Below, piece by piece: positions 4,709 through 17,951 of a DNA stretch of 17,951 nt. Every line of letters starts with the position of its first letter. The stretch's first letter is position 1. The stretch comes from Betaproteobacteria bacterium. GTDB lineage: Bacteria; Pseudomonadota; Gammaproteobacteria; Burkholderiales; Rhodocyclaceae. The notes under the pieces were generated by a model. That model ran no database searches, was not told where the DNA came from, and worked only from the letters and a program-made list of their open reading frames with translations. Made by a program: the position numbers and the translations under genes. The stretch spans positions 1-17,951 of the forward strand of contig JAPTVL010000201.1 in assembly GCA_028065725.1 (NCBI GenBank), given 5' to 3'.

Positions 4709-5259
4709 TCAGCGACTTCGTCGCATCGTGGGGCTATTTCGCCGTTTTCTTCGGCACGCTGCTCGAAGGCGAAACCATTCTGATCGCCGCCGGGTTCGCC
4801 GCCCATCGCGGTCTGCTCGACTGGCGCGTCGTGGTCCTGGTCGCCATCGCTGGCGGCACACTGGGTGACCAGCTGGCGTTTCTGCTCGGGCGCTGGAAAG
4901 GTGCGGCCCTGATCGAGCGCTTCCCCGCTCTGGCACAGCGCAAACCGCGTGTCGACGCGATCCTCGCGCGCTACGACGCTTTGTCGATTATCTCGGTCAG
5001 GTTCCTTTACGGCCTGCGCATCGCCGGGCCGGTGATCCTGGGAGCGGGCCGGGTCCCACTGCTTCGCTTTGCGCTCCTCAACCTGATCGGCGCTGCTTTG
5101 TGGGCAGTGCTCGTCTCCGCTGCCGGCTATGCCTTCGGTTTCGCCATCCAAGCCCTGATTGCCGACTTGAAGAGAATCGAGGAGCTCGTGTTGGTCGGCG
5201 TACTGGCGCTCGGCGTCGCATTGTGGCTGTGGCGCCGCGTCCGCGCACGGACCCATTGA
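4705..5259 (+). CDS. DedA family (VTT/SNARE-associated) membrane protein
   Basis: 184 residues, close to the usual ~200 of DedA proteins. Family signatures are visible: the N-terminal FFGTLLEGETILIAAGF re-entrant segment with its conserved acidic residues, GGTLGDQLAFLLGRWKG around residues 50-68, and the SVRFLYGLRIAGPV…GAGRV…RFALLN block at about 95-125. A C-terminal helix (about 158-178) ends in an arginine-rich cytoplasmic tail (WRRVRARTH). DedA proteins are inner-membrane transporters; characterized members act in undecaprenyl-phosphate or phospholipid translocation and in envelope stress resistance. The ATG overlaps the preceding kinase remnant's TGA (ATGA), so expression depends on that upstream gene, which may explain why the remnant's frame is preserved. 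The exact substrate cannot be read from sequence. Confidence 0.92.
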   Translation: MISDFVASWGYFAVFFGTLLEGETILIAAGFAAHRGLLDWRVVVLVAIAGGTLGDQLAFLLGRWKGAALIERFPALAQRKPRVDAILARYDALSIISVRFLYGLRIAGPVILGAGRVPLLRFALLNLIGAALWAVLVSAAGYAFGFAIQALIADLKRIEELVLVGVLALGVALWLWRRVRARTH

Positions 5260-5386: not shown

Positions 5387-5450
5387 GGCGCCGCGATGCC
5401 GGGACAATTTTCCGCGGACGCCATGCGCTAACGCCCGCCTAATTATCGGT
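5387..5450 (+). promoter_or_regulatory. Hairpin followed by GCGCTAA-N8-TAATTAT motif, copy 1, upstream of BON gene
   Basis: A GC-rich hairpin (GGCGCCGCG at 5387-5395 pairing with CGCGGACGCC at 5413-5422, one bulged A) is followed two bases later by GCGCTAA (5425-5431), eight bases, then TAATTATCG. The motif begins 97 bp before the BON ATG. The same GCGCTAA-N8-[CT]AATT arrangement recurs at 5882, 15109 and 17824. It may be a promoter or a regulator site shared by stress-type genes. No good sigma-70 -35 match is seen at proper spacing. The remainder of the 5260-5521 gap shows nothing else. Confidence 0.45.
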
Positions 5451-5521
5451 GAGTATATTCACAGGCGCGCGAATCCCCGCGCAATTCGGGTTTGATGCGG
5501 TAATCAATGGAGAGTCTTGTC

Positions 5522-5836
5522 ATGGCACGATTCACAAAGAACATTTCCTCTTTTTTCCTTGCTCTGATACTGGCGACCGTCATGGGCTGCGCGGCCACCT
5601 CCCCCAGAGAGGGCGCGGGAGAGTACGTCGGCGACGCTGTGATCACCACCAAGATAAAAGCGGCGATATTCAACGAACCTTCGCTGAAATCGCGCGAAAT
5701 CCACGTCGTGACGATCAAGGGCGCGGTCCAACTCGCCGGATTCGTTCCATCCCAGGCGGACATGAATAAGGCGGTCGAAGTCGCACGCGGCGTCGACGGC
5801 GTCAAGTCCGTCCACAACGAAATGCGGCTTAAATAG
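5522..5836 (+). CDS. BON-domain lipoprotein (OsmY-like)
   Basis: 104-residue exported protein. The N-terminus is a lipoprotein signal, with hydrophobic residues 8-21 and the lipobox-like VMGC ending at C23. A single BON domain (about 35-104) follows: DAVITTKIKAAIFNEP, then VVTIKGAVQLAGFV, then KAVEVARGVDGVKSV and the ending NEMRLK. BON domains are associated with membrane/phospholipid interaction and osmotic or envelope stress (OsmY, DolP); the position here suggests the periplasmic face of an envelope membrane. The start at ATG 5522 has GGAGAG seven bases upstream and fits the signal peptide better than the in-frame ATG at 5507. It is preceded and followed by copies of the GCGCTAA motif, and a decayed paralogue lies at 14865-15063. 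Confidence 0.9.
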   Translation: MARFTKNISSFFLALILATVMGCAATSPREGAGEYVGDAVITTKIKAAIFNEPSLKSREIHVVTIKGAVQLAGFVPSQADMNKAVEVARGVDGVKSVHNEMRLK

Positions 5837-5843
5837 CAACGGT

Positions 5844-5878
5844 CCGGGAACGCCTGACCGAACCAATGGCTTTCCCGG
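5844..5878 (+). terminator. Hairpin after BON gene, copy conserved at 15071
   Basis: CCGGGAA (5844-5850) pairs with TTCCCGG (5872-5878); an inner GCC/GGC pair (5852-5854, 5868-5870) extends the stem across one mismatch. It lies 8 bp after the BON stop but has no T-run, so it is not a classical intrinsic terminator. An almost identical hairpin follows the BON pseudogene. It could be a terminator, an mRNA 3'-end stabilizer or part of a repeat element. Confidence 0.45.
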
Positions 5879-5881
5879 CAC

Positions 5882-5910
5882 GCGCTAACTCCGGGTCAAT
5901 TTTCTCGACC
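5882..5910 (+). promoter_or_regulatory. GCGCTAA-N8-CAATT motif, copy 2
   Basis: GCGCTAA at 5882-5888, eight bases, then CAATTTTCTCGACC. It sits three bases after the BON hairpin, as in the second BON copy. No rightward gene follows here; the convergent DUF5666 gene ends at 5928, so this copy may be orphaned. Confidence 0.35.
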
Positions 5911-5911
5911 C

Positions 5912-5929
5912 AGCCATTTTGAAATGGCT
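5912..5929. repeat. Perfect 8-bp inverted repeat at convergent gene ends
   Basis: AGCCATTT (5912-5919) and AAATGGCT (5922-5929) form a perfect palindrome with a two-base centre, overlapping the stop codon of the DUF5666 gene. No T-run follows on either strand. Possible weak bidirectional terminator or protein-binding palindrome. Confidence 0.4.
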
Positions 5930-7607
5930 AATTCAATCGGATCAGACTTGCTGTCAGGGTCGATCCGTTCAGCGTTCCAGTAACCTGCACGCTGACGCCG
6001 TTGGCCAGCGTGCCGTTTCCCGAGGGCGTGACTCCGGCGAAATATACGGTGATCCCGTCCAAGTTGAAGGTGCCGTTGGTCAGGTCCACGTTGCTGGCGA
6101 TTCCGTCAATTTGGTTGGTATCGCCGGTGGCATTCGAGCCGCTGCCGCTATTCGCCTGCGGGATGCCCAGCATGAAAGTAACTGTATTAACCACCCATTG
6201 ACCATTGACCAGCGATGCATTGGCTGTGATGTATTTTCCGTTGCGTAGATCCGCGCTGGTGCCGCCGATGTAGAACGGTGTCGGCGCCAAAATCGCCTGC
6301 ACCGTAGCCCCGCCGTCGTCCAGGGTAATCGAAAACGCCCCCGTCGGCGACGTATAGCCGCTGACGACACCGAGGAGATCGCCGACGCTGCCCTCCGACT
6401 CTGTCGCGAACTCGACGCTGCTGGCGCGGACGACATTGTTCGCGACCGTACCTTGAATTTCCACATAGGCATTGTTCTGGAGATCGGCCGCGGTGCCGCC
6501 GGAGAAGGTAGCGGCGCTCGCGTCGACCAGTACGCCACGAACACGGAAATTGGCGGGGCTGACAAGATCGGTGACGGTGCCATTAACCTCCGCCTGAATC
6601 GAATCGCTGTCGTACTGGGTGACGCTAGTCGCCGCCAGTTGGTTGGTGGCCCGATCATAGTTGCCGCGGACGATCACATTCAACTCGTTTGCCAGAACCA
6701 ATCCCGCCGGCGTAAGCGTCGCCGACCCGGCATTGACCGTCACGCCGGCGATGCTGAAGCTTGCATTGCTCGTATAGTTGCGGATCTCGCCGCTCAGACG
6801 CAGGTCGCTGAGGACGCTGCTTAGGCCGCTGCCCGGTTTTCTGATCGCGATGGCGGCGGCGGCCATATTGTTGCCGCTCAGAGGCGTGCCGCTGTACACC
6901 GATACCCGCTCGCCGTCGGCCAGACTCTGGCCGGACGGCGTAATTGCGGTGCTGGTGCCGTAGCTCACGGTCAATCCACCAAGGGTGAAGGTCCGACTGA
7001 TCGAGTTCAGTTGGCTGAGCGTGCCGGTAACACGAACCGCGCAGCCGCCAGCACAGGCGCTTGGCTTGAGTTCGATTCGCGTGGCGGCGACGTAAGGACC
7101 GGAGCCGTCGGTCTTGGGCAAGCCGTCGACCTCGACCCGGTCATTGAGTTGAATACTGGAGAATTGAGCGTATCCGCCATAGACGGTAAGCGGCAGCGTG
7201 GGGTTGGCGGCGTTCGCCACCACCCGCGTTCCTGCGACCGTGATGGTGTTGGTCGATGCGGAAATCTCGGATACTACGCCGATCACTTCGGGGTAAATAT
7301 GTACCGCCGTAGCATTGCCGCGCGAGTCGATTTCCGCCTCGATTTGCTGCCCTAGCCTGGCTGAAGTCGGGGATACGGCCACAGCATTTTCGCTGTCCCC
7401 GGTCAGGTCATAAGCCGCGCCGGCGTCCGGATAACGGCTGCCGTCTACGATGACGCTGCCAAATCCGGTAATGGTGCCGGCTACTATGCCGGTGCCCCCG
7501 GACCCGATCCCTGAGGCCAGTCCGATGCCGGCGCCGCCAGAGCCGCAACCTACCAGACCGGCGATCAATATAACGGCAGCAAATTGACTTAGTACTCTGG
7601 AAATCAT
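5928..7607 (-). CDS. Multi-repeat DUF5666 lipoprotein
   Basis: 559 residues. The N-terminus is a lipoprotein signal with hydrophobic residues 9-19 and lipobox LVGC ending at C21, followed by a glycine/serine-rich linker (22-42). The rest consists of about six or seven related beta-rich units of 65-80 residues of the DUF5666 type. Each has a G-x-[VI]-x-x-[FIL] opening and an x-V-x-V-x-G-[TN]-x…L-x-A-x-x-[IV] closing strand; closings appear for example as IVRGNYDRATNQLAATSV and VQVTGTLNGSTLTASLI. This predicts a long envelope-anchored beta-strand protein. The molecular function is unknown. It overlaps the upstream DUF6502 gene by 4 bp (ATGA), making a two-gene operon, and is transcribed away from the pilus operon. 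Confidence 0.85.
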   Translation of the reverse strand: MISRVLSQFAAVILIAGLVGCGSGGAGIGLASGIGSGGTGIVAGTITGFGSVIVDGSRYPDAGAAYDLTGDSENAVAVSPTSARLGQQIEAEIDSRGNATAVHIYPEVIGVVSEISASTNTITVAGTRVVANAANPTLPLTVYGGYAQFSSIQLNDRVEVDGLPKTDGSGPYVAATRIELKPSACAGGCAVRVTGTLSQLNSISRTFTLGGLTVSYGTSTAITPSGQSLADGERVSVYSGTPLSGNNMAAAAIAIRKPGSGLSSVLSDLRLSGEIRNYTSNASFSIAGVTVNAGSATLTPAGLVLANELNVIVRGNYDRATNQLAATSVTQYDSDSIQAEVNGTVTDLVSPANFRVRGVLVDASAATFSGGTAADLQNNAYVEIQGTVANNVVRASSVEFATESEGSVGDLLGVVSGYTSPTGAFSITLDDGGATVQAILAPTPFYIGGTSADLRNGKYITANASLVNGQWVVNTVTFMLGIPQANSGSGSNATGDTNQIDGIASNVDLTNGTFNLDGITVYFAGVTPSGNGTLANGVSVQVTGTLNGSTLTASLIRLN

Positions 7608-8461
7608 TTGCCAGTCTCCGATTGCGATGAGGTAGCCCGCCGCCCGTCAGGTGCGATTGGCGTTGAATAGAAGTAATTGCCCAGCCTGAAGCGAAACGGC
7701 TCGGCGGTATTCTTATCCCCGGCGTAAAGCTGATTGGCAAGCTTAATCAGCTCCAGCGAATATTTCGCCCAGTGCGAACGGGTGAACTTGGCCAGTTTGT
7801 CTACCGAGGCTTTGCTAAGACCGCTGCCGAATACAGCCTGTTCGAGAAACGGCGGGGGGACGCCGCGCAGATTCGACGTTGCCGCGTAGAGGTGATCCTG
7901 CAGATTCGCTGCAAACAGTTTCAGCAATTCGCTCAAGTCGTCCTGCGGCACGAAACTCTCTCGCACCAAGGCTATCCGCATCGCTTTGCCCTTGCCGTCG
8001 CGGTCGCAGCGCACCATACCCTGCGCTTGCATGGCCTTAAGGATTGCTCCTGGATGCACGTCTCGCGTGATCGACCGCGCCAGACTTTCGAAGGACGGCG
8101 CCGGCCCGTTCTTGAGGAGCCTCCTCGGCTTGCCGCTTTTGAGAACATACCTCGGGTCGCTTACCCATTTGGTGAACAAAAGCGAGGCAATCGATCCCGA
8201 AATTTCCCCTGAATCGCCGTGCCCATTGCTCAGTTCGCGAACGTCCTTGCGATGCAAGCCCGACATCATGCTGACCGAGGAATCGTTGATCTTGACTTCG
8301 CCCTTCTCCAACTCCAGTTTCGCCGCCTGGACAAATACGGGCTTGAGCGCCCTGACAAACAATGGGTAGTTCACGCCTTCCAGCAGGCAGTAGCGCACCA
8401 GCGGCAGCAGGCTTGCCGCGCAAACTTCCAGTACCTCTTCGCCCTTGAGTTTTGGTTTCAC
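7604..8461 (-). CDS. DUF6502 family protein
   Basis: 285 residues, recognised as DUF6502 from its N-terminal pattern (LLPLVRYCLLEGVNYPLFVRALK) and its pairing with a DUF5666 gene. Residues about 59-77 (SSVSMMSGLHRKDVREL) look like the recognition part of a winged helix, which suggests a DNA-binding or regulatory role. A middle segment (SFESLARSITRDVHPGAIL) and a C-terminal helical region (about 190-260) complete it. There is no signal peptide or membrane segment, so it should be cytoplasmic. The start is GTG at 8461; no in-frame ATG lies upstream and no clear Shine-Dalgarno is seen. The 4-bp overlap with the DUF5666 gene shows cotranslation. Function is not established. Confidence 0.85.
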   Translation of the reverse strand: MKPKLKGEEVLEVCAASLLPLVRYCLLEGVNYPLFVRALKPVFVQAAKLELEKGEVKINDSSVSMMSGLHRKDVRELSNGHGDSGEISGSIASLLFTKWVSDPRYVLKSGKPRRLLKNGPAPSFESLARSITRDVHPGAILKAMQAQGMVRCDRDGKGKAMRIALVRESFVPQDDLSELLKLFAANLQDHLYAATSNLRGVPPPFLEQAVFGSGLSKASVDKLAKFTRSHWAKYSLELIKLANQLYAGDKNTAEPFRFRLGNYFYSTPIAPDGRRATSSQSETGK

Positions 8462-8618
8462 CGCGCACGTGTCTTCATTTGGTCGGATTATGAAAAATGT
8501 GATAATCTCCCATTATTACTAATTACAAATCGGATGCGTAGTTAGGGACGTTTGACAAACACGCAGCATCGAAAACCAAATTTTACTTCACTTACTTCAA
8601 ACCGCGATAAGGCGAATT
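8462..8618. promoter_or_regulatory. Divergent promoter region between DUF6502 operon and pilus operon
   Basis: 157 AT-rich bases serve two divergent operons. On the plus strand TTGACA (8552-8557) is a perfect -35 consensus, but the -10 candidates about 17-19 bp on are weak (ACCAAA, CAAATT). No GG-N10-GC sigma-54 element, common for major pilins, is evident. On the minus strand AT-rich stretches near 8505-8530 could hold the -10 for the GTG-started gene. AAGGCG at 8609-8614 is the pilin Shine-Dalgarno. Confidence 0.45.
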
Positions 8619-9014
8619 ATGACTCCGAATCGACGCGGCCGCGGCTTGACCTTGATCGAACTGATGATCGTCCTGGTGATAGTGGGCGTATTGGCGGCGG
8701 TCGCTTACCCATCCTACATGAGCTATTTGGCTAAAGGCAGGCGATCGTCCGCGCAAGCCTTCCTCATGGACATCGCGCAAACGCAGCAACGGTATTTGCT
8801 TGACGCGCGAAACTATGCGCCGGACCTGGCATCGCTGAACATGACCACGCCGAGCAACGTCTCCCTCTACTACACCATCACGATCGGAACAGTCTCCACC
8901 CCGCCGCCGACTTTTTCCGCAATCGCAACGCCCAAAGCCGGGACCCCCCAGGCATCGGACGTAACGCTCAGCATCGATAGCGCAGGGGTGAAGGCGCCTC
9001 CTAACGTCTGGTAG
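8619..9014 (+). CDS. pilE: Type IV pilin, PilE family
   Basis: 131 residues with a short basic leader MTPNRRGRG and a class III (prepilin peptidase) site between G9 and L10. The mature N-terminus LTLIELMIVLVIVGVLA has the conserved Glu at mature position 5 and the long hydrophobic helix that embeds pilins in the membrane and the fibre core. The globular part is typical of PilE-like minor pilins (QAFLMDIAQTQQRYLLDARNY, ending PPNVW). Mature residue 1 is Leu rather than the common Phe, and there are no cysteines, so the C-terminal disulfide loop of major pilins is missing; this favours a minor pilin. First gene of the operon; fimT starts 8 bp after its stop. Confidence 0.9.
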   Translation: MTPNRRGRGLTLIELMIVLVIVGVLAAVAYPSYMSYLAKGRRSSAQAFLMDIAQTQQRYLLDARNYAPDLASLNMTTPSNVSLYYTITIGTVSTPPPTFSAIATPKAGTPQASDVTLSIDSAGVKAPPNVW

Positions 9015-9022
9015 ATGCGACC

Positions 9023-9544
9023 ATGAACTGCGGCGGGCAACAACTGCGCCTGAATTGTCGTCGCACCGCAGGTATCCGAACGCGCGGCGGCGCCGGCTTT
9101 ACCATGATGGAAGTATTGGTGACTGTCGCCATCGCCGCCATATTGGCCGCACTCGCCGCGCCGTCGTTCTCCGATTTGATCGCGAGCCAACGGGCAAAAG
9201 CCGTTGCTTCGGAGTTGTATGTCGCTTTATTGAGGGCGCGCAGCGAGGCCGTGACCCGCAATGCGAACGTCACCTTGTCGCCAAAGGCGGGCGGCTGGCA
9301 AAACGGCTGGCAGATACTGGACCCCACCAATGCGGCTCGCGTTTTGGAGGATCGCGGCGCAACCAGCAACGCCGCGATTAACACCGCGTCCAGCGGCGTT
9401 ACTTTCCAAGGTTCAGGACGTGTCCAGGGAGTCAGCGCACCGACGTTCGTCATTGCGACCGCGGGCGGTTCAGCGGTCAAATACCAGTGTGTATCGGTGG
9501 AACTCAGCGGTCGGCCCTATATGAAATCGGGTTCATCATGTTGA
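9023..9544 (+). CDS. fimT: GspH/FimT-type minor pilin
   Basis: 173 residues. A 25-residue leader ends in GGAG, with cleavage before F26 (FTMMEVLVTVAIAAIL; E30 is mature Glu5). The following LAAPSFSDLIASQRAKAVASELYVALLRARSEAV block is the signature of GspH/FimT/FimU pseudopilins. The C-terminal region carries a late cysteine pair (KYQCVSVE and the final SSC), likely a disulfide. FimT/FimU proteins join PilV, PilW, PilX and PilY1 in the priming tip complex of the pilus; some FimT homologues bind DNA during natural transformation. No strong ribosome binding site is visible, suggesting coupling to pilE. The gene overlaps pilV by 7 bp. Confidence 0.88.
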   Translation: MNCGGQQLRLNCRRTAGIRTRGGAGFTMMEVLVTVAIAAILAALAAPSFSDLIASQRAKAVASELYVALLRARSEAVTRNANVTLSPKAGGWQNGWQILDPTNAARVLEDRGATSNAAINTASSGVTFQGSGRVQGVSAPTFVIATAGGSAVKYQCVSVELSGRPYMKSGSSC

Positions 9545-10122
9545 AACCCTGGTGGCTTTGCGACCGACACCAGCGCGGCACCACCTTATTGGAGGTACTC
9601 ATCACCATTGTGATCCTGGCTTTCGGCTTGCTTGGGCTTGCCGGCTTGCAGGCCAAGGTTCAAAGCGCCGAGCTCGAGTCGTATCAGCGCGTGCAGGCGA
9701 TTCTGCTGTTGTCGGACATGAGCGGGCGTCTCAGCGCCAATCGTTTACAGGCGGCGGCTTACGTAGCCGCGGCCCAACCCATAGGCACGGGAGATGCTCA
9801 GCCCGCGTCCTGCGCGGCCCTCCCGATCGGACCGAATCGCGATCTGTGCGAATGGAGCAATGCCTTGAAAGGGGCGGGGGAACAAAAATCATCCATGAGT
9901 ATTGGGGCGATGGTGGGGGCGCGTGGTTGCATCACCCAGGTCCAGGCGCCTAATTCAGCCTCCGATTTTTGTACCCCGGGCATTTACCGCATTTCCGTGG
10001 CCTGGCAGGGCTTCAATCCAACCAAGGCGTCGGCTTTCACCTGCGGTCAAGGTTTGTACGGACCGGACGCTTACCGTCGCGTCATTACTACGCAGATTAC
10101 GGTTGGTCTCAATTCTTGTTGA
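9538..10122 (+). CDS. pilV: Minor pilin PilV
   Basis: 194 residues. The leader MLKPWWLCDRHQRG is cleaved before T15, giving mature TTLLEVLITIVILAFGLLG with Glu at mature position 5. The next segment, GLQAKVQSAELESYQRVQAILLLSDMSGRL, is the PilV family hallmark (helix followed by the 'A-x-x-L-x-x-D-M' block). Several cysteines (SCAALP, DLCEW, GCITQ, DFCTP, FTCGQ, NSC) suggest disulfides in the globular head. The ATG at 9538 lies inside the end of fimT and is preferred over an upstream in-frame ATG at 9487 because it gives a normal leader length. It acts in the membrane-assembled pilus tip complex. Confidence 0.88.
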   Translation: MLKPWWLCDRHQRGTTLLEVLITIVILAFGLLGLAGLQAKVQSAELESYQRVQAILLLSDMSGRLSANRLQAAAYVAAAQPIGTGDAQPASCAALPIGPNRDLCEWSNALKGAGEQKSSMSIGAMVGARGCITQVQAPNSASDFCTPGIYRISVAWQGFNPTKASAFTCGQGLYGPDAYRRVITTQITVGLNSC

Positions 10123-10154
10123 TCCTTGTTGAAAATCGCCGAGCACCCATAGCC

Positions 10155-11264
10155 ATGTTCAGGATGCGACGAACCATAGGAACCGGCGACAAGCCACGCC
10201 AATGTGGTTTTTCGCTTGTCGAACTGATGGTGGCGATTACGCTGGGTTTGCTCATCGTGGCGGGACTCACCACGTTATTTGTCAAGAACAGTCAAACACG
10301 CGCCGAAATCGAACGCGCCAGTCAGCAGATCGAGAATGGCCGGTACGCGATGCAGCTACTGAGCGACGATCTGCACAACGCCGGTTACCTCGCCGAGTTC
10401 GACGCAAGACAACTGGCGACGCCGGCCGCGAAACCCGACGCCTGCGCAATCGACCTGGCCACCCTGACCGCCGCTCTGCCGATCGCCGTGCAGGGCTATG
10501 ACAATGGTATCGGTGCGCCGGCTTGCTTGAACGACGTGATGGCTGGAACCGACATCCTGGTGATACGCCGCGCCAGCACCTGCGCCGTTGGCGACCCGGG
10601 CTGCGACGCCCTGGTTGCCGGCGCTCCCTATTTCCAGGCATCAGCGTGCAATAGCGCGGCGGAACTGGGTTCCTTCAACGTCACCAACCATTACGCGCTA
10701 AACACAGACACAGCCCAGCTTACTTTGCATAGAAAAGACTGCAATCCCCCGATTACGCCGGGAACGCTTGCCCCTATTCACCAATATCGCACGCATATTT
10801 ATTTTGTCGCCAGAAACGACAAGATTGTGGCGGGGATTGGCGATGGCATTCCCACCCTCAAGCGCGCGGAACTCGGAGCAGAAGGTTTCGCCATCGTTCC
10901 CCTGGTAGAGGGCATCCAGAATCTGCAAATCGAATATGGCATTGATGGCGTCGATCCCGCTAGCGGTGCCCCCGCCCCGCCCGCCGGCACGCCGGCTGTT
11001 TATACCGCCGACCCGGACAGTTACAAGGCATGCGTAGCGGCGACCTGCATCTATTACTGGCGCAACGTCGTGGCGGCCAAGATCACTTTGCTGGCGCGCA
11101 ACACGACCATTACCGCAGGTTACCGGGACGGCAAAAATTACTTGCTGGGACTGAAGGCCGATGGCAGCGCGAACACCGTCGGTCCATTCAACGACGGATA
11201 CAAACGCCACCTATATGAGTCGGTAGTACGGTTGGACAATCCGGCAGGAAGGAATACGCCATGA
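10155..11264 (+). CDS. pilW: Minor pilin PilW
   Basis: 369 residues. The leader MFRMRRTIGTGDKPRQCG is cleaved before F19, giving FSLVELMVAITLGLLIVAG with Glu at mature position 5. The PilW signature NGRYAMQLLSDDLHNAGYLAEFD follows the first helix. A large globular region contains cysteine-rich loops (STCAVGDPGCDALV; CVAATCIYYWRN) and the family's closing pattern, with VPLVEGIQNLQIEYGID in the middle and YRDGKNYLLGL near the end. Together with PilV and PilX it builds the pilus tip subcomplex that carries PilY1. ATG 10155 is preferred to upstream starts because it gives a normal prepilin leader. It overlaps pilX by 4 bp (ATGA). Confidence 0.9.
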   Translation: MFRMRRTIGTGDKPRQCGFSLVELMVAITLGLLIVAGLTTLFVKNSQTRAEIERASQQIENGRYAMQLLSDDLHNAGYLAEFDARQLATPAAKPDACAIDLATLTAALPIAVQGYDNGIGAPACLNDVMAGTDILVIRRASTCAVGDPGCDALVAGAPYFQASACNSAAELGSFNVTNHYALNTDTAQLTLHRKDCNPPITPGTLAPIHQYRTHIYFVARNDKIVAGIGDGIPTLKRAELGAEGFAIVPLVEGIQNLQIEYGIDGVDPASGAPAPPAGTPAVYTADPDSYKACVAATCIYYWRNVVAAKITLLARNTTITAGYRDGKNYLLGLKADGSANTVGPFNDGYKRHLYESVVRLDNPAGRNTP

Positions 11265-11815
11265 AATCGATACCGTCCCGGCAAAGCGGCGCTACCTTGC
11301 TGATTAGCCTGATCATGTTGGTGCTGATGACATTGCTTGCGGTAACCACCTTCAGGCTTGGCAAGGCCAATTTGCAGATTGCGGCCAATATGCAGCAACG
11401 CAACCAAGCATTCGCCGCGGCGCAAGGCGCCATCGAACAGGTTATCAGCAGCACGCAGTTCATGACGACTCCCGCCAATGCGATACCGCATCCTTGCAAC
11501 CTCGTAGTGAACACGACCTGTGTCGATGTCAATGGCGACGGGGTGATGGACGTGACGGTCGCCGTCGCGCCGTCCTGCGTCTCGACTCAGGTCATCCCCG
11601 TTGCCGCCCTGAGTTTAGCCAAGCCCAATGACGTGGGTTGTTTGGTCGGTGTCAGCCAGCAATTTGGTGTAGTCGGAGCAGCCCACACCGGTTCTTTATG
11701 CGCGAATATGCTGTGGGACGTGCAAGCTGTTGCCACCGACCCTCTCAGCAACGCGCAATTTGCGATCAACCAGGGTATCGCTGTCCGTGTGGCGGCAACC
11801 ACCGTTTGCAATTAA
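11261..11815 (+). CDS. pilX: Minor pilin PilX with an EF-hand-like loop
   Basis: 184 residues; start preceded by AGGAAGGA. The N-terminus MKSIPSRQSG/ATLLISLIMLVLMTLL is a PilX-type prepilin, with cleavage after G10. As expected for PilX/GspK-like tip pilins the mature position 5 is not Glu (here Ile15). The block LQIAANMQQRNQAFAAAQGAIEQ is the PilX family hallmark. Residues 89-97 (DVNGDGVMD) fit the calcium loop pattern D-x-[DN]-x-D-G-x-x-D and are bracketed by C87 and C106, so a calcium-stabilised, disulfide-tied loop is plausible. It overlaps pilW by 4 bp and is followed 17 bp later by pilY1. It is expected at the very tip of the pilus beneath PilY1. Confidence 0.9.
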   Translation: MKSIPSRQSGATLLISLIMLVLMTLLAVTTFRLGKANLQIAANMQQRNQAFAAAQGAIEQVISSTQFMTTPANAIPHPCNLVVNTTCVDVNGDGVMDVTVAVAPSCVSTQVIPVAALSLAKPNDVGCLVGVSQQFGVVGAAHTGSLCANMLWDVQAVATDPLSNAQFAINQGIAVRVAATTVCN

Positions 11816-11832
11816 TCGCGAGGAAATCCGTC

Positions 11833-14800
11833 ATGAGCCATTTCGGCAACAGAACGTTCTTGGCGCTCGCGCTTTGGTGCAGCTTCTGCCTCACGCCATT
11901 GCAGGCGATGGCTGACGATATCGATATTTTCCTGGGCGCCTCCGGGGGTAGTGCGGTGGCGCCCAAGGTCACGATTCTTCTTGATAATTCCACCGACGAC
12001 CTGTTCGCGGCCAAGCTTGACGCCATCAGCACCGTTCTGGATACGGTGTTCACCGCAGGAAAACCCATGAATATCGGGCTGGCCATGTGGGGCCAGGTGG
12101 CCCCGCCCCATGGAGGGGCCTATATCCGCTTTGCGCCCAGGGACATGAGTATTGCGGCTAACAGGAATGCACTGAAGGCAATATTGGCTCTGATAAAAAC
12201 GAAAAACGAGTCGACTGGAAAGAAGAACGAGCCTGAAGGGTTTTACGAGCTGTACAAATATTATGCCGCGCTCGCGCCCTACGCCGGCGCCCTGATAAAC
12301 AATCCGAACGCGGACGCGATTGGAAACGCCGGGAGCTACGCCGGCGCCACCGGATTCGGCCAGGGCCTGACGTCCGGATTCGCGTTCAAGCCGGATGGTA
12401 CTTATGACAGCGTAAGCGCGGCCTGTGGCAAGAATTACATCGTCTATATTGCGGCGAATAATGGCTTCGATCCCAACGACGTTCGCGGCCTGCCTACCTA
12501 TGAGAGCCTCAACGTAGCGCCTCCGCTTCCGGTTTTTCCGAGCTATTGGGGCGACGAATGGACTCACTATCTGTACGGCCAGACCAATCCACAGGTCGTT
12601 ACTTACGTATTGGACGCCGCTTCCCCCGGAAATTCGGATCCGGCGTACACCAGCATTTTGCAGGCTGAAGCCAAGCAAGGTGGCGGAACCTGGCAGTATG
12701 TCTCCAGCCAGTCGACTATCGTCACGGCGCTATTGAAGATTTTTGTCGAAATCCAGGCGGTCAACACGACGTTTGCTTCAGCCAGCCTGCCGGTCAACAC
12801 GACAAACCGGGCGCAAGACAAGAATCAGGTATTCATTCCGATGTTTCGACCCGACCCGAGTGCCAAACCACGGTGGATGGGGAACCTGAAGCAGTATCAA
12901 TTGATCAAGGTGGGCAGCACGATCGAACTCGGAGATTCAACTGGAAGTCCGGCCGTAAACCCGCTTACAGGTTTTCCCACCGATTGTGCCATCAGTTACT
13001 GGACAACGGATTCGTCAGGCCCCCCGGCGTACTGGGCAAACGTACCGGAGACCCCCAGCCCCAAAGGACAGTGTTCCGCCACATCGTCTAGCCCGTATTC
13101 CGACTCACCGGACGGCGCCTTTGTGGAAAAAGGCGGCGCCGCGGAGGTAATCCGCAAGGGGAACAATCCGCCATCTACAAACACCACGCCGACTTGGGCA
13201 GTCAACCGCACCATCTACACGCTATCCGGCACCACCGGCACTGTTCTGGTGCCGTTCGACACCACATCCTCCGGACTGCCGCCGTCGCTGGTGAAATTTA
13301 TTCGCGGTGAGGATGTCAACGACGAGAATGCCAGCTGTCCGGCGGGCGCTACCGCAACCAATGCTTGCTATACGGAAGCGCGACCATCCTTGCACGGCGA
13401 TGCCGTTCATTCCCGGCCGCTACCGGTCGATTATGGCGGCTCAACCGGCGTCACCGTCTATTACGGATCCAACGACGGTACCCTGCGGGCGGTGGACTCG
13501 ACTGCCGGTAGCGAACGCTGGGCCTTCATTGCCCCCGAATTCTTCCCCACGCTCTCGCGCCTGAGCAGCAATAGCCCCCAGGTTAACTACCCGGGCATGC
13601 CGGCAGGCATAGTCCCTACCCCTACGGCCAAGAACTATTACTTCGACGGGTCGCTCGGCGTTTATCAAGCCGCCGGAAATTCCAGTGTCTGGATTTACCC
13701 CACCATGCGCCGCGGCGGACGCATGATCTATGCGCTCGATGTCACCAATCCCGCTGCGCCGGCACTCAAGTGGAAAATCGGCTGCCCCAATTTGACGAAC
13801 GATACGGCATGCACAGCGGGCATGAGCGGGATCGGGCAAACCTGGTCCCTGCCGAACGTCGCCGGCTCGGTCAACGGCTACCCCGGACCGGTTGTGATCG
13901 TTGGCGGCGGCTATGACAGTTGCGAGGATGCCAACACGGCGACACCAAGCTGCACCAGTCCCAAGGGGGCCAGCGTCTATGTCATAGACGCAAATACCGG
14001 CGTGGTGATCAAGACATTTGGCACTGCGCGCAGCGTGGCAGCCGATGTGACGCTGCTCGCCGTGACTGAGGTTGGTGTGGCTGACCACGCCTATGCCGTC
14101 GACACCGGGGGCAATATCTACCGCATCGACTTTGGATCATCGGTCAGCAGCTGGACCATGAATCGCGTCGCTTACACCAATGGCTCCGGTCGGAAATTCC
14201 TTTTCCCGCCAGCACTCCTGCCAGCAGCGGGAGGAAGAGTGTACGTGGCAATCGGTTCGGGCGACCGTGAACATCCATTGCTCAGCCAATATCCATATTC
14301 CGGCGTCATCAATCGCTTCTATGTTTATTTGGATGACCTGACTGCCACGACCGCCACGAACCTCGACGATACCTCAATCATGAAGGATTTCAGTACGGGC
14401 TCGACCTGCAGTATCGCCGGTATTCTGCCGTCATCCACCTTCAAGGGCTGGTTCATGAACCTGAATCAAAATGGCCAGGGCGAGCAAACCGTCACGTCCG
14501 CAATCATCGCCGGCGGCATGGTGACATTCAGCACCAATCGCCCGATACCGGCCGCCGCAGGTACCTGCGCTACGACCTTGGGCGACGCGCGCGGATACTG
14601 GGTCAATCTGTTCAACGGATCCGGCGCCATTGGCGTGACCGGTTCCTGCGGCGGAGTCCGGTCGTCGACCTTCACCGGTGGCGGATTACCGCCTTCCCCG
14701 GTAATAGGCACCGTACCCATCGGCGGCAGACCGGTGACGGTGATCATCGGCGCTCCCCAACGAACGGGGGCAGCGAATTCGCCCATCTCGCCACAAGAAG

Positions 14801-14862
14801 TCAAGCCTACTATTACTAACCTCAGGAGTACGATCTACTGGAAATCTTCTGGTGAAAATTGA
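11833..14862 (+). CDS. pilY1: PilY1-type pilus tip adhesin/assembly factor
   Basis: 1009 residues from ATG 11833, chosen for its GAGGAAAT ribosome binding site and a proper signal peptide (1-27, ending QAMA). Residues about 30-330 form a von Willebrand A-like domain of the betaproteobacterial PilY1 type (DIDIFLGASGGSAVAPKV; LLDNSTDD at 49-56). Its metal site is reduced: D51-N-S53-T-D55 instead of D-x-S-x-S. The C-terminal half is a PilY1 beta-propeller, with YYGSNDGTLRAVDS, then GGRMIYALDVTNP, GGGYDSCED and the YAVDTGGNIYRIDFG blade near residues 755-770. A calcium loop of the form DxNxDGxxD was not seen. PilY1 proteins sit at the pilus tip or outer membrane and act in pilus extension, adhesion and surface sensing. 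Last gene of the operon; the BON pseudogene begins immediately after its stop. Confidence 0.9.
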   Translation: MSHFGNRTFLALALWCSFCLTPLQAMADDIDIFLGASGGSAVAPKVTILLDNSTDDLFAAKLDAISTVLDTVFTAGKPMNIGLAMWGQVAPPHGGAYIRFAPRDMSIAANRNALKAILALIKTKNESTGKKNEPEGFYELYKYYAALAPYAGALINNPNADAIGNAGSYAGATGFGQGLTSGFAFKPDGTYDSVSAACGKNYIVYIAANNGFDPNDVRGLPTYESLNVAPPLPVFPSYWGDEWTHYLYGQTNPQVVTYVLDAASPGNSDPAYTSILQAEAKQGGGTWQYVSSQSTIVTALLKIFVEIQAVNTTFASASLPVNTTNRAQDKNQVFIPMFRPDPSAKPRWMGNLKQYQLIKVGSTIELGDSTGSPAVNPLTGFPTDCAISYWTTDSSGPPAYWANVPETPSPKGQCSATSSSPYSDSPDGAFVEKGGAAEVIRKGNNPPSTNTTPTWAVNRTIYTLSGTTGTVLVPFDTTSSGLPPSLVKFIRGEDVNDENASCPAGATATNACYTEARPSLHGDAVHSRPLPVDYGGSTGVTVYYGSNDGTLRAVDSTAGSERWAFIAPEFFPTLSRLSSNSPQVNYPGMPAGIVPTPTAKNYYFDGSLGVYQAAGNSSVWIYPTMRRGGRMIYALDVTNPAAPALKWKIGCPNLTNDTACTAGMSGIGQTWSLPNVAGSVNGYPGPVVIVGGGYDSCEDANTATPSCTSPKGASVYVIDANTGVVIKTFGTARSVAADVTLLAVTEVGVADHAYAVDTGGNIYRIDFGSSVSSWTMNRVAYTNGSGRKFLFPPALLPAAGGRVYVAIGSGDREHPLLSQYPYSGVINRFYVYLDDLTATTATNLDDTSIMKDFSTGSTCSIAGILPSSTFKGWFMNLNQNGQGEQTVTSAIIAGGMVTFSTNRPIPAAAGTCATTLGDARGYWVNLFNGSGAIGVTGSCGGVRSSTFTGGGLPPSPVIGTVPIGGRPVTVIIGAPQRTGAANSPISPQEVKPTITNLRSTIYWKSSGEN

Positions 14863-14864
14863 GG

Positions 14865-15063
14865 CGCCGTCATTACCACCAAGGTGTAGGCGGCGATGTT
14901 CAACGAACCTTCGCTGAAATCGTTCGACATCAACGTTGCGACCTTCAAGGGCGCGGTCCAACTCCGCGTCGTCACCTCCCAGATCAATATGAACAAGACA
15001 ATCGACGTTGCACGCGGCGTCAACGGCGTCAAGTCGGTCAAGAACGATATGCGGCTCAAATAG
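14865..15063 (+). pseudogene. Decayed second copy of the BON-domain gene
   Basis: The sequence matches 5636-5836 closely, at roughly four of five bases by eye. Translated in the corresponding frame it gives AVITTKV, a TAG stop (14887-14889), then AAMFNEPSLKSFDINVA, TFKGAVQL, ARGVNGVKSV and MRLK before TAG at 15061-15063. The signal peptide and promoter half are missing: homology begins just after the pilY1 stop. One codon is deleted relative to the intact copy (near 14970). An ATG at 14896 could in theory give 55 residues but has no ribosome binding site. The same hairpin and GCGCTAA motif follow it. Confidence 0.85.
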
Positions 15064-15070
15064 CAGCAGT

Positions 15071-15105
15071 CCGGGAACGCCTGACCGAAACAACGGCTTT
15101 CCCGG
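15071..15105 (+). terminator. Hairpin after BON pseudogene, second copy of the 5844 hairpin
   Basis: CCGGGAA (15071-15077) pairs with TTCCCGG (15099-15105), with the same inner GCC/GGC pair as the first copy. All stem bases are unchanged; the differences fall in the 13-base loop (TGACCGAAACAAC against TGACCGAACCAAT). No T-run. Conservation of the stem beside a dead gene suggests function of its own or recent common origin. Confidence 0.45.
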
Positions 15106-15108
15106 CCT

Positions 15109-15136
15109 GCGCTAAGCCCGGGCTAATTATCGCGAC
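15109..15136 (+). promoter_or_regulatory. GCGCTAA-N8-TAATTAT motif, copy 3
   Basis: GCGCTAA (15109-15115), eight bases, then TAATTATCGCGACG, three bases after the hairpin as in copy 2. It is the closest match to copy 1 (TAATTATCG). An ATG with a 30-odd codon frame lies 93 bp downstream at 15202, but a strong terminator intervenes. Confidence 0.4.
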
Positions 15137-15141
15137 GTAGA

Positions 15142-15185
15142 GTGATCATCACGGTGGACGCCAGCGCGTCCGCTTTTTTGATCAC
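15142..15185 (+). terminator. Intrinsic terminator with extended palindromic arms
   Basis: Core stem GGACGC (15156-15161), loop CAGC, GCGTCC (15166-15171), then six Ts (15174-15179): a classical rho-independent terminator. Outer arms GTGATCA (15142-15148) and TGATCAC (15179-15185) are also complementary and could extend the structure. It closes rightward transcription from the pilus operon and the BON remnant. Confidence 0.75.
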
Positions 15186-15355
15186 ACTCACCGCGCTCAT
15201 CATGCGAACCGAAAAAATCCTTTCGTTTGGATGTCATCGGCTTGATCGTCCTCAACACGTTCCTGGACTTCGGCGGCGTGAACGGCGTGTTTGACATGCA
15301 AAAGAACAACGCTGTCTCGCTGTCCGTGGCGAAACTCCGCCTGTACCAGACCCAA
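15186..15355. other. Leader region of the glycosyltransferase gene
   Basis: The glycosyltransferase frame stays open upstream to 15227, starting at a TTG, and reads DVIGLIVLNTFLDFGGVNG and onward. No Shine-Dalgarno precedes it and it does not resemble the family's N-terminus. It may be untranslated leader or remains of another gene. No clear promoter is visible. Confidence 0.35.
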
Positions 15356-17107
15356 ATGACGTACCGCCACGCGACCGGGCGTCGAGCGATGCAACTCCCC
15401 TTTGCCGTTTTCCTACTGCTGGTCGCGGCCTATCTCCTGCCGGGCTTGATCGGGCATGACCCCTGGAAGCAAGACGAGACTTATATCTTCAGCATAGTCC
15501 ACCACCTCCTGCAAAGCGGAGACTGGGTGGTGCCCCAGTTGGTGGGCGAGCCGTTTATGGAAAAGCCGCCTTTGTACTACTGGGTTGCGGCACTGCTGGC
15601 CCATGTTTTTTCATCGTCGCTGCCGCTCTATGACGGCGCACGGCTCGCCACCGGGCTGTTCATGGCGACGAACTTCGCTGCCATCGGACTGGCGGCCAGG
15701 CACTGGTGGGGTGCGGGTCACGGGCGCATTGCGGTGCTGGTGCTGATGGCATGCTTCGGCTTGCTCTACGAGAGCCACATCATGATTACCGATGTGCCCA
15801 TGCTCACCGGTTTCGCCATTGCCAGTTACGGTTTTGCCTTGAGCCGCGAGCGCTATCTTGCCGGCGGAATCTGGCTCGGCACAGGTGTGGGTGTGGGCTT
15901 TCTCGCCAAGGGACTGCTGGTACCGGGCGTGATCGGGGTGACTGCAGTCGCACTGCCATTGTTGTTCCCAAACTGGCGCCACAGGGCCTACGCCCGCGTT
16001 CTGCTGGTGGCAGCGGCGGCGGCGCTGCCGTGGCTGTTGATCTGGCCGATTGCCCTGTACCAGCGCTCGCCACAACTGTTCTATGACTGGTTCTGGCTCA
16101 ACAACGTCGGGAGGTTCTTGGGCTTTTCCGTGCCTCGGTTGGGTGCCTCCAATGAGCCGTGGTTCTGGCTGAAAACCCTGCCGTGGTTTGCGTTTCCCGC
16201 CCTGCCGCTGGCGATGTTGAGCGTGTGGCAGCAGCGTCGGGAGTTCAGCCGCAGCCCGCCGCTGCAATATGGCCTGGTGGCGTTTACCGTATGTCTGGCG
16301 GTATTGCTGGTATCGGCTTCAGCACGCAATGCCTACGGCCTTCCCATGCTTGCGGCCCTTGCTGTGTTGGCTGCGCCGGCGGTAGCGAACTTGCCCGACC
16401 GACTAAGTCGATACCTCGACGCCGCCTCACGCATCCTGTTCACCGGCTTGGCGTGTTTGATTTGGGCGGTGTGGATTGTCTTGATCGTCACCGGACGCGC
16501 ACCCGACTGGAAGTTCCTTACGCGCGCGCTGCCGGTCGACTACGTTATGCCTTTCATACCCGTGGCTGTTGCGGCTGCCGTGCTTGCGACGCTGGCTTAT
16601 CTGCTGGCCTGGGTCTGGTTGCCACGCATACGTGGGCGTGCGATCGTGAGCATGGCGGCCGGGACCACGCTGTGCTGGCTGCTGCTTGCCACCCTGTGGT
16701 TACCCTGGGTGGACGCTGCCAAGAGTTACCGCAGCGTGTTTCTGGCTATGCAACCGCATTTGCCGATCAAGTACCGTTGCGTCGAAAGCGTCGGCTTGGG
16801 CGAATCCGAGAGCGCCATGCTGCTGTATTTTTCCAAGATACGCACGCTATCGCGAGAGCTTCACCCCAATGCGGTTTGCGACGTGCTGCTGGTGTACTCC
16901 GTAAATGCGCCGCCGTTAGCGGTCGAGCGAAGCTGGCGACCCATTTGGGAGGGCGACCGACCGGGCGATACGCGCGAACGCTTCAGCTTGTTCGTGCAGC
17001 AGCCCCATTCGCCCAAGGGCCAGCTCGCGCTAGCGCGAGATCTGGTACCCGGCGACCGTATGCACGCGCCTATGGACAATTTCGTCACTGCCCGGCCGCG
17101 TCAATAA
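15356..17107 (+). CDS. ArnT/GT39-type membrane glycosyltransferase
   Basis: 583 residues from ATG 15356; ATG 15389 (MQLPFAVFLLL) is an equally good or better start by comparison with ArnT, whose N-terminus begins directly with the first helix. The catalytic loop after helix 1, HDPWKQDETYIF (acidic pair D40/E41), and the following SGDWVVPQLVGEPFMEKPPLYYW are diagnostic of the ArnT/PMT (GT83/GT39) superfamily. About 11-12 transmembrane helices follow (for example 130-150, 190-230, 310-350, 415-440, 460-500), then a C-terminal soluble domain (about 500-583). These enzymes move a sugar from a polyprenyl-phosphate carrier to lipid A, glycans or proteins on the periplasmic side of the inner membrane. 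The acceptor is unknown; pilin glycosylation is conceivable given the neighbouring operon but is inference. No strong ribosome binding site is seen at either start. Confidence 0.87.
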   Translation: MTYRHATGRRAMQLPFAVFLLLVAAYLLPGLIGHDPWKQDETYIFSIVHHLLQSGDWVVPQLVGEPFMEKPPLYYWVAALLAHVFSSSLPLYDGARLATGLFMATNFAAIGLAARHWWGAGHGRIAVLVLMACFGLLYESHIMITDVPMLTGFAIASYGFALSRERYLAGGIWLGTGVGVGFLAKGLLVPGVIGVTAVALPLLFPNWRHRAYARVLLVAAAAALPWLLIWPIALYQRSPQLFYDWFWLNNVGRFLGFSVPRLGASNEPWFWLKTLPWFAFPALPLAMLSVWQQRREFSRSPPLQYGLVAFTVCLAVLLVSASARNAYGLPMLAALAVLAAPAVANLPDRLSRYLDAASRILFTGLACLIWAVWIVLIVTGRAPDWKFLTRALPVDYVMPFIPVAVAAAVLATLAYLLAWVWLPRIRGRAIVSMAAGTTLCWLLLATLWLPWVDAAKSYRSVFLAMQPHLPIKYRCVESVGLGESESAMLLYFSKIRTLSRELHPNAVCDVLLVYSVNAPPLAVERSWRPIWEGDRPGDTRERFSLFVQQPHSPKGQLALARDLVPGDRMHAPMDNFVTARPRQ

Positions 17108-17322
17108 CGCAGTCGACGCCGCCCGCGGTGTTGGCGGCGCCGATTAGGTCCAGATTCCCCGCAGCCCTGCCCGCGACGACAGCGGCAAGTCCATTGTGTA
17201 TGTAGCGAAGACGATTCCAGGCCGCAATTATTCCGTTGCCAAGACCCGGCGCGAACCTGTCGCGGCCAAAAAAGCGACCGGCCGTTTGTGAACTAGACTT
17301 GTCCGGCAACCTCGCCCGACGA
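17108..17322. other. Gap between convergent genes
   Basis: 215 bp between the glycosyltransferase stop and the leftward hypothetical gene's stop. A minus-strand frame (17309-17085, TTG start) is open but lacks a ribosome binding site and recognisable features. A CGGCC/GGCCG pair flanks a T-run near 17267-17287 but the T-run is in the loop, so no terminator is claimed. Confidence 0.35.
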
Positions 17323-17610
17323 TCACTGTATGCTGGGGCCGATCCACCTGTCGTCGACGTCCGCGAGGAAGGCGAGACCGCCCGCGTATTTGGATGCTTT
17401 GAGTTGCCGCCTGAAGGCCACTTGAGCAGCCGGCGGCTCCAGGTGCAGCAGGCACAGGCATTGGAGTCCCCCGCTTCGCGGGTCCCGGCTGGCGGGAAAA
17501 ATTCTCAGCGTCTCCACCTTTCCGAATTTGGCGCAAACCGACTCAATGGCCAGTTGGAGCGCCGGCTCATTCTGGAATGGCGGAAAGCCGTTCTTGAGCG
17601 TACTGTTCAA
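17323..17610 (-). CDS. Small hypothetical protein, probably frameshifted at its 5' end
   Basis: 95 residues from a TTG at 17610. The composition looks like real protein: ALQLAIESVCAKFGKVETLR, then GGLQCLCLLHLEPPAAQVAF and FLADVDDRWIGPSIQ, with an alpha/beta pattern that could fit an RNA-recognition-like (RRM) fold. It has no signal peptide. The frame stays open upstream to 17682 and reads KWSEARHFVLCCNAANEKP, also protein-like. Just before it is ATGAAAGTGG, where removal of one A would give ATG-AAG-TGG and join a start codon at 17686 to this frame, yielding about 120 residues. So the native gene is probably 17323-17686 with a one-base frameshift, real or a sequence error. Function unknown. 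Confidence 0.55.
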   Translation of the reverse strand: MNSTLKNGFPPFQNEPALQLAIESVCAKFGKVETLRIFPASRDPRSGGLQCLCLLHLEPPAAQVAFRRQLKASKYAGGLAFLADVDDRWIGPSIQ

Positions 17611-17919
17611 TTGCTGGGCAGGTACCGGTTTCTCATTCGCCGCGTTACAGCATAGTACGAAATGCCGCGCTTCGCTCCACTTTCATCTGTCGAGGGCGGC
17701 CTGTGTCGCGCTATGCCGATCAGCCGCCGCGGGGCGCTGCGCAAGCGGAATCGCGCCGGATCACCCTGTCCTTCCGTGCAGCCGACGGTCCGCCGCGGAT
17801 GCGGGCGCCAAAAACAATACCGGGCGCTAAGTCCCTCCTAATTCTTGCCGCGTAGGATGCAATTGAAGGCGAGGCAATCAAGCCCGTCCCCAATTCATAA
17901 CTTTGAAGGAGCAAGGACC
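17611..17919. other. Upstream region between divergent genes
   Basis: 309 bp containing the putative 5' part of the leftward hypothetical gene (17611-17686) and the leader of the rightward gene at 17920. Apart from the GCGCTAA motif at 17824 nothing else convincing is seen. Confidence 0.4.
17824..17850 (+). promoter_or_regulatory. GCGCTAA-N8-TAATTCT motif, copy 4
   Basis: GCGCTAA (17824-17830), eight bases, then TAATTCTTGCCG. It begins 96 bp before the next ATG (17920), matching the 97 bp between copy 1 and the BON gene start. This equal distance favours a promoter or regulator site over a chance match. Confidence 0.45.
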
Positions 17920-17951
17920 ATGAGCAGCAAGAAGACGCTTTTGTTTGGAAC
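17920..17951 (+). CDS. Start of an unidentified gene (cut by window edge)
   Basis: ATG at 17920 is preceded by GAAGGAGCAAGGACC, an excellent ribosome binding site. Only MSSKKTLLFG is visible before the window ends, too little to assign a family. By the shared upstream motif it may be co-regulated with the BON lipoprotein gene. Confidence 0.6.
   Translation, partial: MSSKKTLLFG

Follow-up and report, generated by a model that had tools for sequence, protein, structure and literature searches.

A 17,951-nt stretch of DNA from a Betaproteobacteria bacterium of the Rhodocyclaceae (assembly GCA_028065725.1, contig JAPTVL010000201.1, positions 1 to 17,951 of the forward strand; the whole stretch is called the window below) carries four copies of a short element, GCGCTAA-N8-YAATT, some of them shortly upstream of genes. 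The question raised by this locus is what kind of signal the element, referred to here as the box, could be. Judged by its layout and its counterparts in related genomes, it is very probably the operator, together with the class II promoter, of an OmpR/PhoB-family response regulator of the MmfR/BqsR/PmrA kind. On the best reading, the promoters that it would serve in the window are those of a BON-domain lipoprotein gene (5522), a decayed PepSY gene (15202) and a PepSY-like gene (17920). A response-regulator box with a class II promoter is a known kind of arrangement; what appears to be new is that the half-site diverges, that an Asp/Glu difference in the regulator's helix is correlated with it, that a hairpin recurs in the leaders and that a BON gene seems to have been recruited.

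Copies of the box in the window

Exact matches to GCGCTAA-N8-YAATT lie at 5425, 5882, 15109 and 17824, all on the plus strand and none elsewhere in the window, against a mean of 0.01 and a largest count of 1 in 200 dinucleotide shuffles of the window. The four copies pointed out in an earlier sequence-only reading are thus real, and the distances it gave from box to ATG, 97 bp for the gene at 5522 and 96 bp for that at 17920, are correct. The box-bearing regions contain the following features.

5425..5444, plus strand: box 1 (half-sites 5428-5431 and 5439-5444), matrix score 34.8, the top position of the window
5454..5459, plus strand: -10-like hexamer TATATT, from the sequence, 9 nt past box 1
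5467..5482, plus strand: possible leader hairpin GCGCG-AATCCC-CGCGC, where the motif of the sequence-only reading has a one-mismatch match
5522..5836, plus strand: BON-domain lipoprotein gene 3' of box 1 (Pfam PF04972, E 2.9e-20; open reading frame 5507-5836)
5837..5881, plus strand: hairpin 3' of the BON gene, terminator-like without a T run (-17.4 kcal/mol, z -2.5)
5882..5901, plus strand: box 2, vestigial, with TCAATT as second half-site and CAGCCA at offset 9; matrix score 11.0, not matched by CTAAN7CTAATTN9TA
14865..15063, plus strand: decayed second copy of the BON gene with an in-frame stop near its start (D1/D2 repeats, 81-84% identity)
15064..15108, plus strand: hairpin 3' of the BON copy (-17.1 kcal/mol, z -2.4)
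15109..15128, plus strand: box 3, matrix score 27.7
15138..15143, plus strand: -10-like hexamer TAGAGT, from the sequence, at offset 9 from box 3
15156..15171, plus strand: leader hairpin GGACGC-CAGC-GCGTCC, in the minimum-energy fold of the leader's first 55 nt (-25.9 kcal/mol overall)
15202..15349, plus strand: decayed PepSY gene (tblastn with PepSY1 of genome G488: 50% over 46 residues at 15212-15349, E 1.9e-8)
17824..17843, plus strand: box 4, matrix score 21.7
17853..17858, plus strand: -10-like hexamer TAGGAT, from the sequence, at offset 9 from box 4
17920..17951, plus strand: start of a PepSY-like gene cut by the window end (MSSKKTLLFG...), seven of ten residues as in G488 PepSY1 (MRTKKSLLFG)

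The constant spacing of exactly eight bases, on which the sequence-only reading had insisted, holds, but the element is better parsed as two half-sites, CTAA-N7-CTAATT, in an 11-bp register. That description also missed a further fixed feature, a TA-starting hexamer 9 nt downstream of CTAATT in three of the four copies (5454, 15138 and 17853). The extended pattern CTAAN7CTAATTN9TA has three matches in the window and none in 200 shuffles. Half-sites of the three intact copies read GCTAAC or GCTAAG and CCTAAT or GCTAAT; the copy at 5882 has the altered second half-site and no -10-like hexamer. Two tandem half-sites with a period of about 11 bp, as in OmpR/PhoB-type operators, are therefore present in three of the four window copies and, in strict form, in 11 of the 23 PepSY promoters of relatives described below. 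A -10 at a fixed short distance without a separate -35, as in class II promoters, is found in three of the four window copies and in all 16 relaxed boxes of relatives, the absence of a -35 being judged by inspection of the aligned promoters only. The earlier remark that no standard promoter class matches the element is right as regards pairs of sigma-factor hexamers but wrong as regards OmpR/PhoB-family-activated promoters, whose layout (tandem half-sites repeating every 11 bp in the -35 position, followed by a -10) is the one seen here.

The fixed distance to a -10-like hexamer and the positions upstream of genes would suit any promoter, including one of an alternative sigma factor in which CTAATT (or GCGCTAA) is the -35 and the TA hexamer the -10. 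In sigma-70-type promoters, however, 16-19 nt lie between -35 and -10. CTAATT stands only 9 nt from the -10, far below that range, and the sigma-factor reading is therefore rejected as very unlikely; inspection of the aligned promoters likewise revealed no sigma-70 promoter with its own -35 at 16-19 nt from the -10. Further points against it are that the second conserved block repeats the first with an 11-bp period, that the box is linked to response-regulator genes and stands directly before them in 4 of 30 loci, and that its half-site varies along with the helix of the linked regulator.

The copies at 5882 and 15109 lie within a single duplicated segment (81% identity over 168 nt, 84% over a further 100 nt), which corresponds to repeat families D1 and D2; the repeat search aligns all four copies as family D3. 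The segment carries the BON gene (5522-5836) and its decayed copy (from 14865), with a hairpin 3' of each. Recurrence of a promoter-associated element beyond chance thus stands for the window, but as three independent contexts and not as four independent events. Since these two copies share a duplication and each follows a hairpin, the box could also be taken for part of a dispersed repeat, such as a mobile or terminator-associated element of small size with copies throughout the genome. Such an origin is extremely unlikely, given that boxes 1 and 4 have little in common with the others beyond the box itself and that relatives conserve only the half-sites, the -10 and leader features, which lie about equally far from the start codon.

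Three copies had been said to follow a GC-rich hairpin. This is so for two (5837-5881 and 15064-15108, with the z values listed above) but not for those at 5425 and 17824, where the preceding DNA does not fold more stably than shuffled DNA (z -0.4 and +1.2). Where a hairpin does accompany the box, in two copies, the association is incidental; the other two copies lack one. A terminator, considered as a candidate role for the element, was rejected on the same comparison of folding with shuffles, two of the hairpins being real and two not.

The box and its proposed regulator in related genomes

Relatives were sought in 399 genomes of the order of Aquaspirillum serpens, whose genome (L052, G001) was the search centre. 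The nearest relative of the BON protein among the 399 order genomes is in G694, at 70% identity, and 98 genomes of the family of G694 were searched as well. In genome G778 (locus L126) an operon runs in the order PepSY, DUF347, PAP2, DUF347, response regulator, kinase, DedA. With the G778 PepSY protein as query, genes were found in 4 of the 98 family genomes and 19 of the 399 order genomes, and all 23 upstream regions were taken. The strict window box is present in 11 of them (500 shuffles: mean 0.01, maximum 1) and a relaxed box in 16 (shuffles: mean 0.62, maximum 3), the relaxed form having been defined after looking at the 23 regions and one extra relaxed match (L138) being excluded. A TANNNT hexamer stands at offset 9 in all 16 relaxed boxes, with none at the other offsets from 0 to 19. 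Outside these 16, the PepSY promoter of L144 reads ATAAN7CTAATT with TATCTT at offset 9. Distances from box to PepSY gene of 96 nt in L111 and 97 nt in L112 equal those in the window.

A matrix built from these 16 relaxed-box promoters of other genomes, with no use of window DNA, was scored on both strands of the window. Its top four positions are 5426 (34.8), 15110 (27.7), 17825 (21.7) and 5883 (11.0). In 40 simulated windows the best score is 16.5 and the mean of the maxima 1.1; the three -10-bearing boxes exceed all of these, and box 2, which scores below the simulated maximum, is therefore not significant alone by the matrix. Box 3 and the DNA following it (15109-15349) are a 70% match to the PepSY promoter of G488 (L169) and also match that of G784 (L112). 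The decayed PepSY gene is frame-broken, its start, MRTEKILSFG, lying in a different frame from the match at 15212-15349. The ten visible residues of the gene at 17920 give a match to G488 PepSY1 that is weak by itself (E 1.5); its 96-nt distance from box 4 is that of L111.

All 23 genomes queried, namely 16 of the 19 order genomes with PepSY (G508, G523 and G664 were not among them) and seven family genomes, have a homologue of the G778 regulator with an E value of 1e-50 or lower. On the same contig, the regulator lies within about 4 kb of the PepSY gene in 17 genomes and of the box in one more (G782), giving linkage of an OmpR/PhoB-family regulator to the sites in 18 of 23 relatives; by coordinates it is unlinked in G488, G694, G784, G814 and G372. 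Its best solved match is BasR/PmrA. In the window only a kinase and a DedA protein of the system are linked, in a region upstream of box 1 that holds the following remnants.

3902..3965, plus strand: short piece similar to the 3' end of an RND efflux-pump gene, lying 5' of the kinase (blastn: L169, 78% over 64 nt; L112, 76% over 66 nt)
4010..4708, plus strand: sensor kinase of the box-associated two-component system, without the middle part with HisKA (tblastn, Pfam)
4705..5259, plus strand: DedA-family (VTT domain) membrane protein, 69% identical to G778 DedA (Pfam PF09335)

Compared by tblastn with window positions 4010-4699, the G778 kinase matches through residues 1-133 (44%) and 322-433 (70%), the intervening part being absent; Pfam recognises HATPase_c in the window kinase, and the phospho-acceptor domain HisKA was not found by it. 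The N-terminal and ATPase parts at 4010-4708 share one open frame, and the gene could be a decayed or an unusual remnant. G778 DedA matches 4705-5280, and the kinase-DedA order is that of L126. With kinase and DedA matches extending over 4010-5280, box 1 stands directly downstream of pieces of the system's own operon, and an intact regulator would be encoded elsewhere in this organism. Locus L114, a related one, has an RND-pump gene (Pfam ACR_tran) immediately 5' of PepSY; a second RND protein (G488) has no tblastn match in the window at E 0.01. Separately, L169:2594-5734 encodes a P-type cation ATPase with a PAP2 phosphatase domain fused to its C-terminus (Pfam); its neighbours are PepSY genes preceded by the box and an RND pump.

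The recognition helix reads [VI]DFLIH[GA] in all 15 tabulated cases with a CTAATT box and VE[FY]LIH[GA] in all six with a CTAAGT box. The differing position is Asp 191 of the G778 regulator, where a gapless alignment puts Glu in BasR. Fisher's test of Asp/Glu against half-site gives 1.8e-5 over the 21 rows, a value that overstates the association because related genomes are treated as independent. The rows come from related genomes picked for linkage and include G684, with ATAA as first half-site; left out are G488, G372, G694, G784 and G814 (unlinked regulator), G840 and G487 (TTAA-type boxes), and the plasmids pS90-2.2 and pBCEN1232. Agreement with the helix rule extends to the unlinked G488 and G814, which have Asp, and to pS90-2.2 (Glu, CTAAG-type box); no box was found in G372. 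Against the rule, the unlinked G694 and G784 have Glu with a CTAATT box, pBCEN1232 has Gln beside a CTAAG-type box, and an unrelated regulator in the window (615-1307) also has Asp there (IIDVHIQHLR). On pBCEN1232, a plasmid of Burkholderia cenocepacia (L206), two DUF4148 genes carry GTTAAC-N5-CTTAAG-type repeats upstream of 3410 and 4611 and adjoin a response regulator; the repeats are perhaps that regulator's own sites.

The regulator at 615-1307 is part of a second two-component system (615-2946), in which an OmpR-family regulator accompanies a kinase with a Tll0287-type sensor (1276-2946); the best match of this kinase in the genome collection is 38% (Nitrospirae). It could be asked whether the box is the site of this regulator, which is of the same protein family (Response_reg plus Trans_reg_C), is the sole complete response regulator in the window and shares the helix Asp. 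It is only 34% identical to the box-linked regulators, however, and the rest of its helix differs. None of 71 loci (0.96 Mb) around relatives of its kinase holds CTAAN7CTAATTN9TA, those kinases being distant at 38% at best. This assignment is accordingly judged distinctly unlikely.

Searching by motif, CTAAN7CTAATTN9TANNNT is found at 40 places in 34 of the 399 order genomes. Among 30 examined order loci with the box, 22 have it before PepSY (10), DUF347 (2), outer-membrane efflux (6) or response-regulator (4) genes and 8 before unrelated ones; its placement relative to genes in the order sample is non-random. Eight of the 22 loci were known from earlier searches and 14 are new. Pfam, applied to 13 of the downstream proteins, identifies five OEP, four Response_reg plus Trans_reg_C, three PepSY and one DUF347; the remaining nine were assigned by own small profiles or tblastn. 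The family's three matches to GCGCTAAN7CTAATT lie 78, 96 and 97 nt before a PepSY gene (Pfam-supported), and four of seven matches to a looser pattern precede a PepSY/DUF347 operon, a fifth being about 1 kb upstream of one. In 16 genomes chosen for having the box or the PepSY gene, 19 short-pattern matches compare with 1 in the reversed control, and 17 of the 19 precede a PepSY or DUF347 gene. The other two (G782 C447:9652 and G488 C229:3055) look like good boxes, yet no PepSY, DUF347, regulator or efflux gene was recognised immediately downstream of them.

Several results weigh against an operator of the linked regulator. In the broad samples, motif counts by themselves are not enriched over reversed-pattern controls, which were counted by eye: 40 matches against 32 in the order sample, 17 against 23 in the class sample (matches in 16 of 369 genomes, the chance level), and, in the family, 3 against 2 for GCGCTAAN7CTAATT and 7 against 12 for the looser pattern. 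In the family the counts alone are uninformative, and it is placement that is informative. Among the 23 PepSY promoters, those of L130, L143 and L148 carry TTAA-type repeats in place of the box, and three more (L146, L147 and L149) have no convincing box. The box-linked regulator gene is absent from the window, where the sole response regulator is the 34%-identical one at 615-1307. In the box-bearing genomes G694, G784 and G814 the best regulator reaches at most 61% identity, with an ordinary PmrA-like helix in two of the three. The target of box 4 is cut off after ten residues, and the box precedes none of 30 BON genes of relatives.

Known systems and a possible mechanism

The closest known counterparts are the mmf cluster and the sites of BqsR, PmrA/BasR, QseB and UzcR. 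The mmf cluster of Tn6048 in Cupriavidus metallidurans has eight genes, including PepSY, a UPP phosphatase, two DUF347 permeases, a regulator and a kinase (PMC4914505), and is reported to be upregulated by Pb and Zn (PMC12029693; Tn6048 is treated in PMC2864759). The box-bearing loci of relatives, mostly near a PmrA/BqsR-like response regulator, are of this mmf type, with which they share the PepSY gene mmfA, DUF347 proteins, UPP phosphatase, mmfR and mmfS (PMC4914505; gene table of plasmid pHB44). C. metallidurans CH34 and pHB44 have a box of the same layout 72 nt before mmfA (CTCAGTGCGAGCTAAGT, N9, TACCTT), its half-sites being CTCAGT/CTAAGT where the window has CTAA/CTAATT. The window holds only the damaged kinase, DedA, PepSY remnants and boxes, and adds the BON gene; of the set mmfA-B-C1-D-C2-R-S-eamA, an orthologous regulator, DUF347, PAP2 and EamA are unmatched there at E 0.01. 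A published MmfR binding site was not found in a literature search covering few subscription papers.

BqsR, of the Fe(II)-responsive BqsRS system of Pseudomonas aeruginosa, is an activator whose operator likewise consists of tandem pentamers with an 11-bp period, one downstream pentamer overlapping the -35 (PMC4682146); PepSY proteins are encoded beside this system (PMC12714742). Its site, TTAAG-N6-TTAAG, differs from CTAA-N7-CTAATT: no window copy reads so, and among the 23 PepSY promoters of relatives only that of L148 does. The PmrA/BasR box is also a direct repeat, with 6-bp half-sites and a 5-bp gap, and one K. pneumoniae PmrA half-site is CCTAAG (PMC10927774). Its half-sites, HTTAAD, are unlike those of the window, and none of the three intact window copies fits HTTAAD-N5-HTTAAD. 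The PmrA regulon consists of lipid A genes. QseB binds a CTTAA-type direct repeat, CTTAAN4CTTAG in one promoter (PMC10714720), which is similar in form but not in its half-sites. UzcR of Caulobacter, responsive to U, Zn and Cu, shares two half-sites, an envelope and metal regulon and activation from 43 or 53 bp upstream of the start (PMC8963506), yet its site, CATTAC-N6-TTAA, is partly palindromic. The AgrR site (PMC7380067), an inverted ATTACA repeat, was set aside as unlike the window box.

On the best reading, CTAA and CTAATT, spaced by 11 bp and standing where a -35 is missing, would be bound head-to-tail by two regulator molecules. These would bring in sigma-70 RNA polymerase at the -10 hexamer, 9 nt further on, as in class II activation. 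A signal, probably envelope or metal stress, would act through the kinase on phosphorylation of the regulator, on occupancy of the tandem site and so on activation. The circuit would be self-reinforcing: besides small PepSY proteins of the periplasm, DUF347 membrane proteins and efflux parts, the regulator would often induce the operon that encodes it. Tuning of the partner kinase is the probable role of the PepSY protein, which may bind and restrain it, by analogy to DbfQ (PMC12714742). The BON lipoprotein would be an extra output of the same box in this organism.

PmrA/QseB-type regulators can both activate and repress. A regulator bound at the -35 position could block polymerase, so that the box might be a response-regulator operator at which the regulator represses. 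Repression is unlikely: the aligned promoters have no -35 hexamer recognisable by inspection, which suggests that an activator is needed, while BqsR, with the same layout, activates (PMC4682146) and the mmf cluster is reported as Pb- and Zn-induced (PMC12029693, PMC2864759).

An activator box with so fixed a promoter geometry would make the regulon predictable in genomes that bear the regulator. It connects efflux genes with PepSY and DUF347 proteins, whose function is unknown, and lets joint change in a regulator and its site be put to the test. Many two-component systems have PepSY proteins beside them, and binding of such a protein to its kinase has been demonstrated in one case (PMC12714742). 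For the mmf-type family, in which a mobile cluster is reported as Pb/Zn-induced, the DNA site seems undescribed in the literature searched.

Leader hairpins, the BON gene and other neighbours

The site at 5467-5482 is the only one in the window with its loop and a 5-bp stem, and a hairpin of this BON-leader form occurs in 14 of 24 leaders of relatives examined. A hairpin with a six-base loop (RATNYC) shortly after the presumed transcription start is present in 15 of 27 leaders, including 5467-5482, L127, L128 and L131-L142. All 15 pair at the inner four stem positions and seven at all six; the stems vary with pairing mostly kept (CACGCG/CGCGTG, CGTGCA/TGCACG, GCGCG/CGCGC). The leader of the DUF347 gene in L217 reads almost like the BON leader of the window. 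Against the hairpin, it is missing from the minimum-energy fold of the BON leader's initial 55 nt, and the strict loop pattern is found in none of 14 further leaders. Such a hairpin could be a stabiliser of the mRNA, a loop-binding site or a second operator.

As none of the 30 BON genes of relatives has the box, the BON gene probably captured the box promoter in the lineage of the window. The BON leader of G694 has its last part in common with that of the window, but not the box. Upstream of the BON genes of relatives, a palindrome such as TGTGCGACACCGCACA is seen in 5 of 30 by a strict pattern (L081, L083, L084, L088 and L091), 151-183 nt before the BON match.

A broader scheme is possible, and is offered tentatively. 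The specificity of MmfR-like regulators may have shifted from the TTAAG of BqsR/PmrA to CTAA-N7-CTAATT or CTCAG/CTAAG, with a helix Asp going with CTAATT and Glu with CTAAGT. Promoter and leader hairpin, the conserved RATNYC loop serving as a second, post-transcriptional control, may travel as a cassette, which the BON gene would have captured, adding an output.

Between the two BON copies, positions 8619-14862 hold a type IV pilus minor-pilin cluster with a ComP-like pilin (DNA-uptake receptor family) and GspH-, PilW-, PilX- and PilY1-like proteins.

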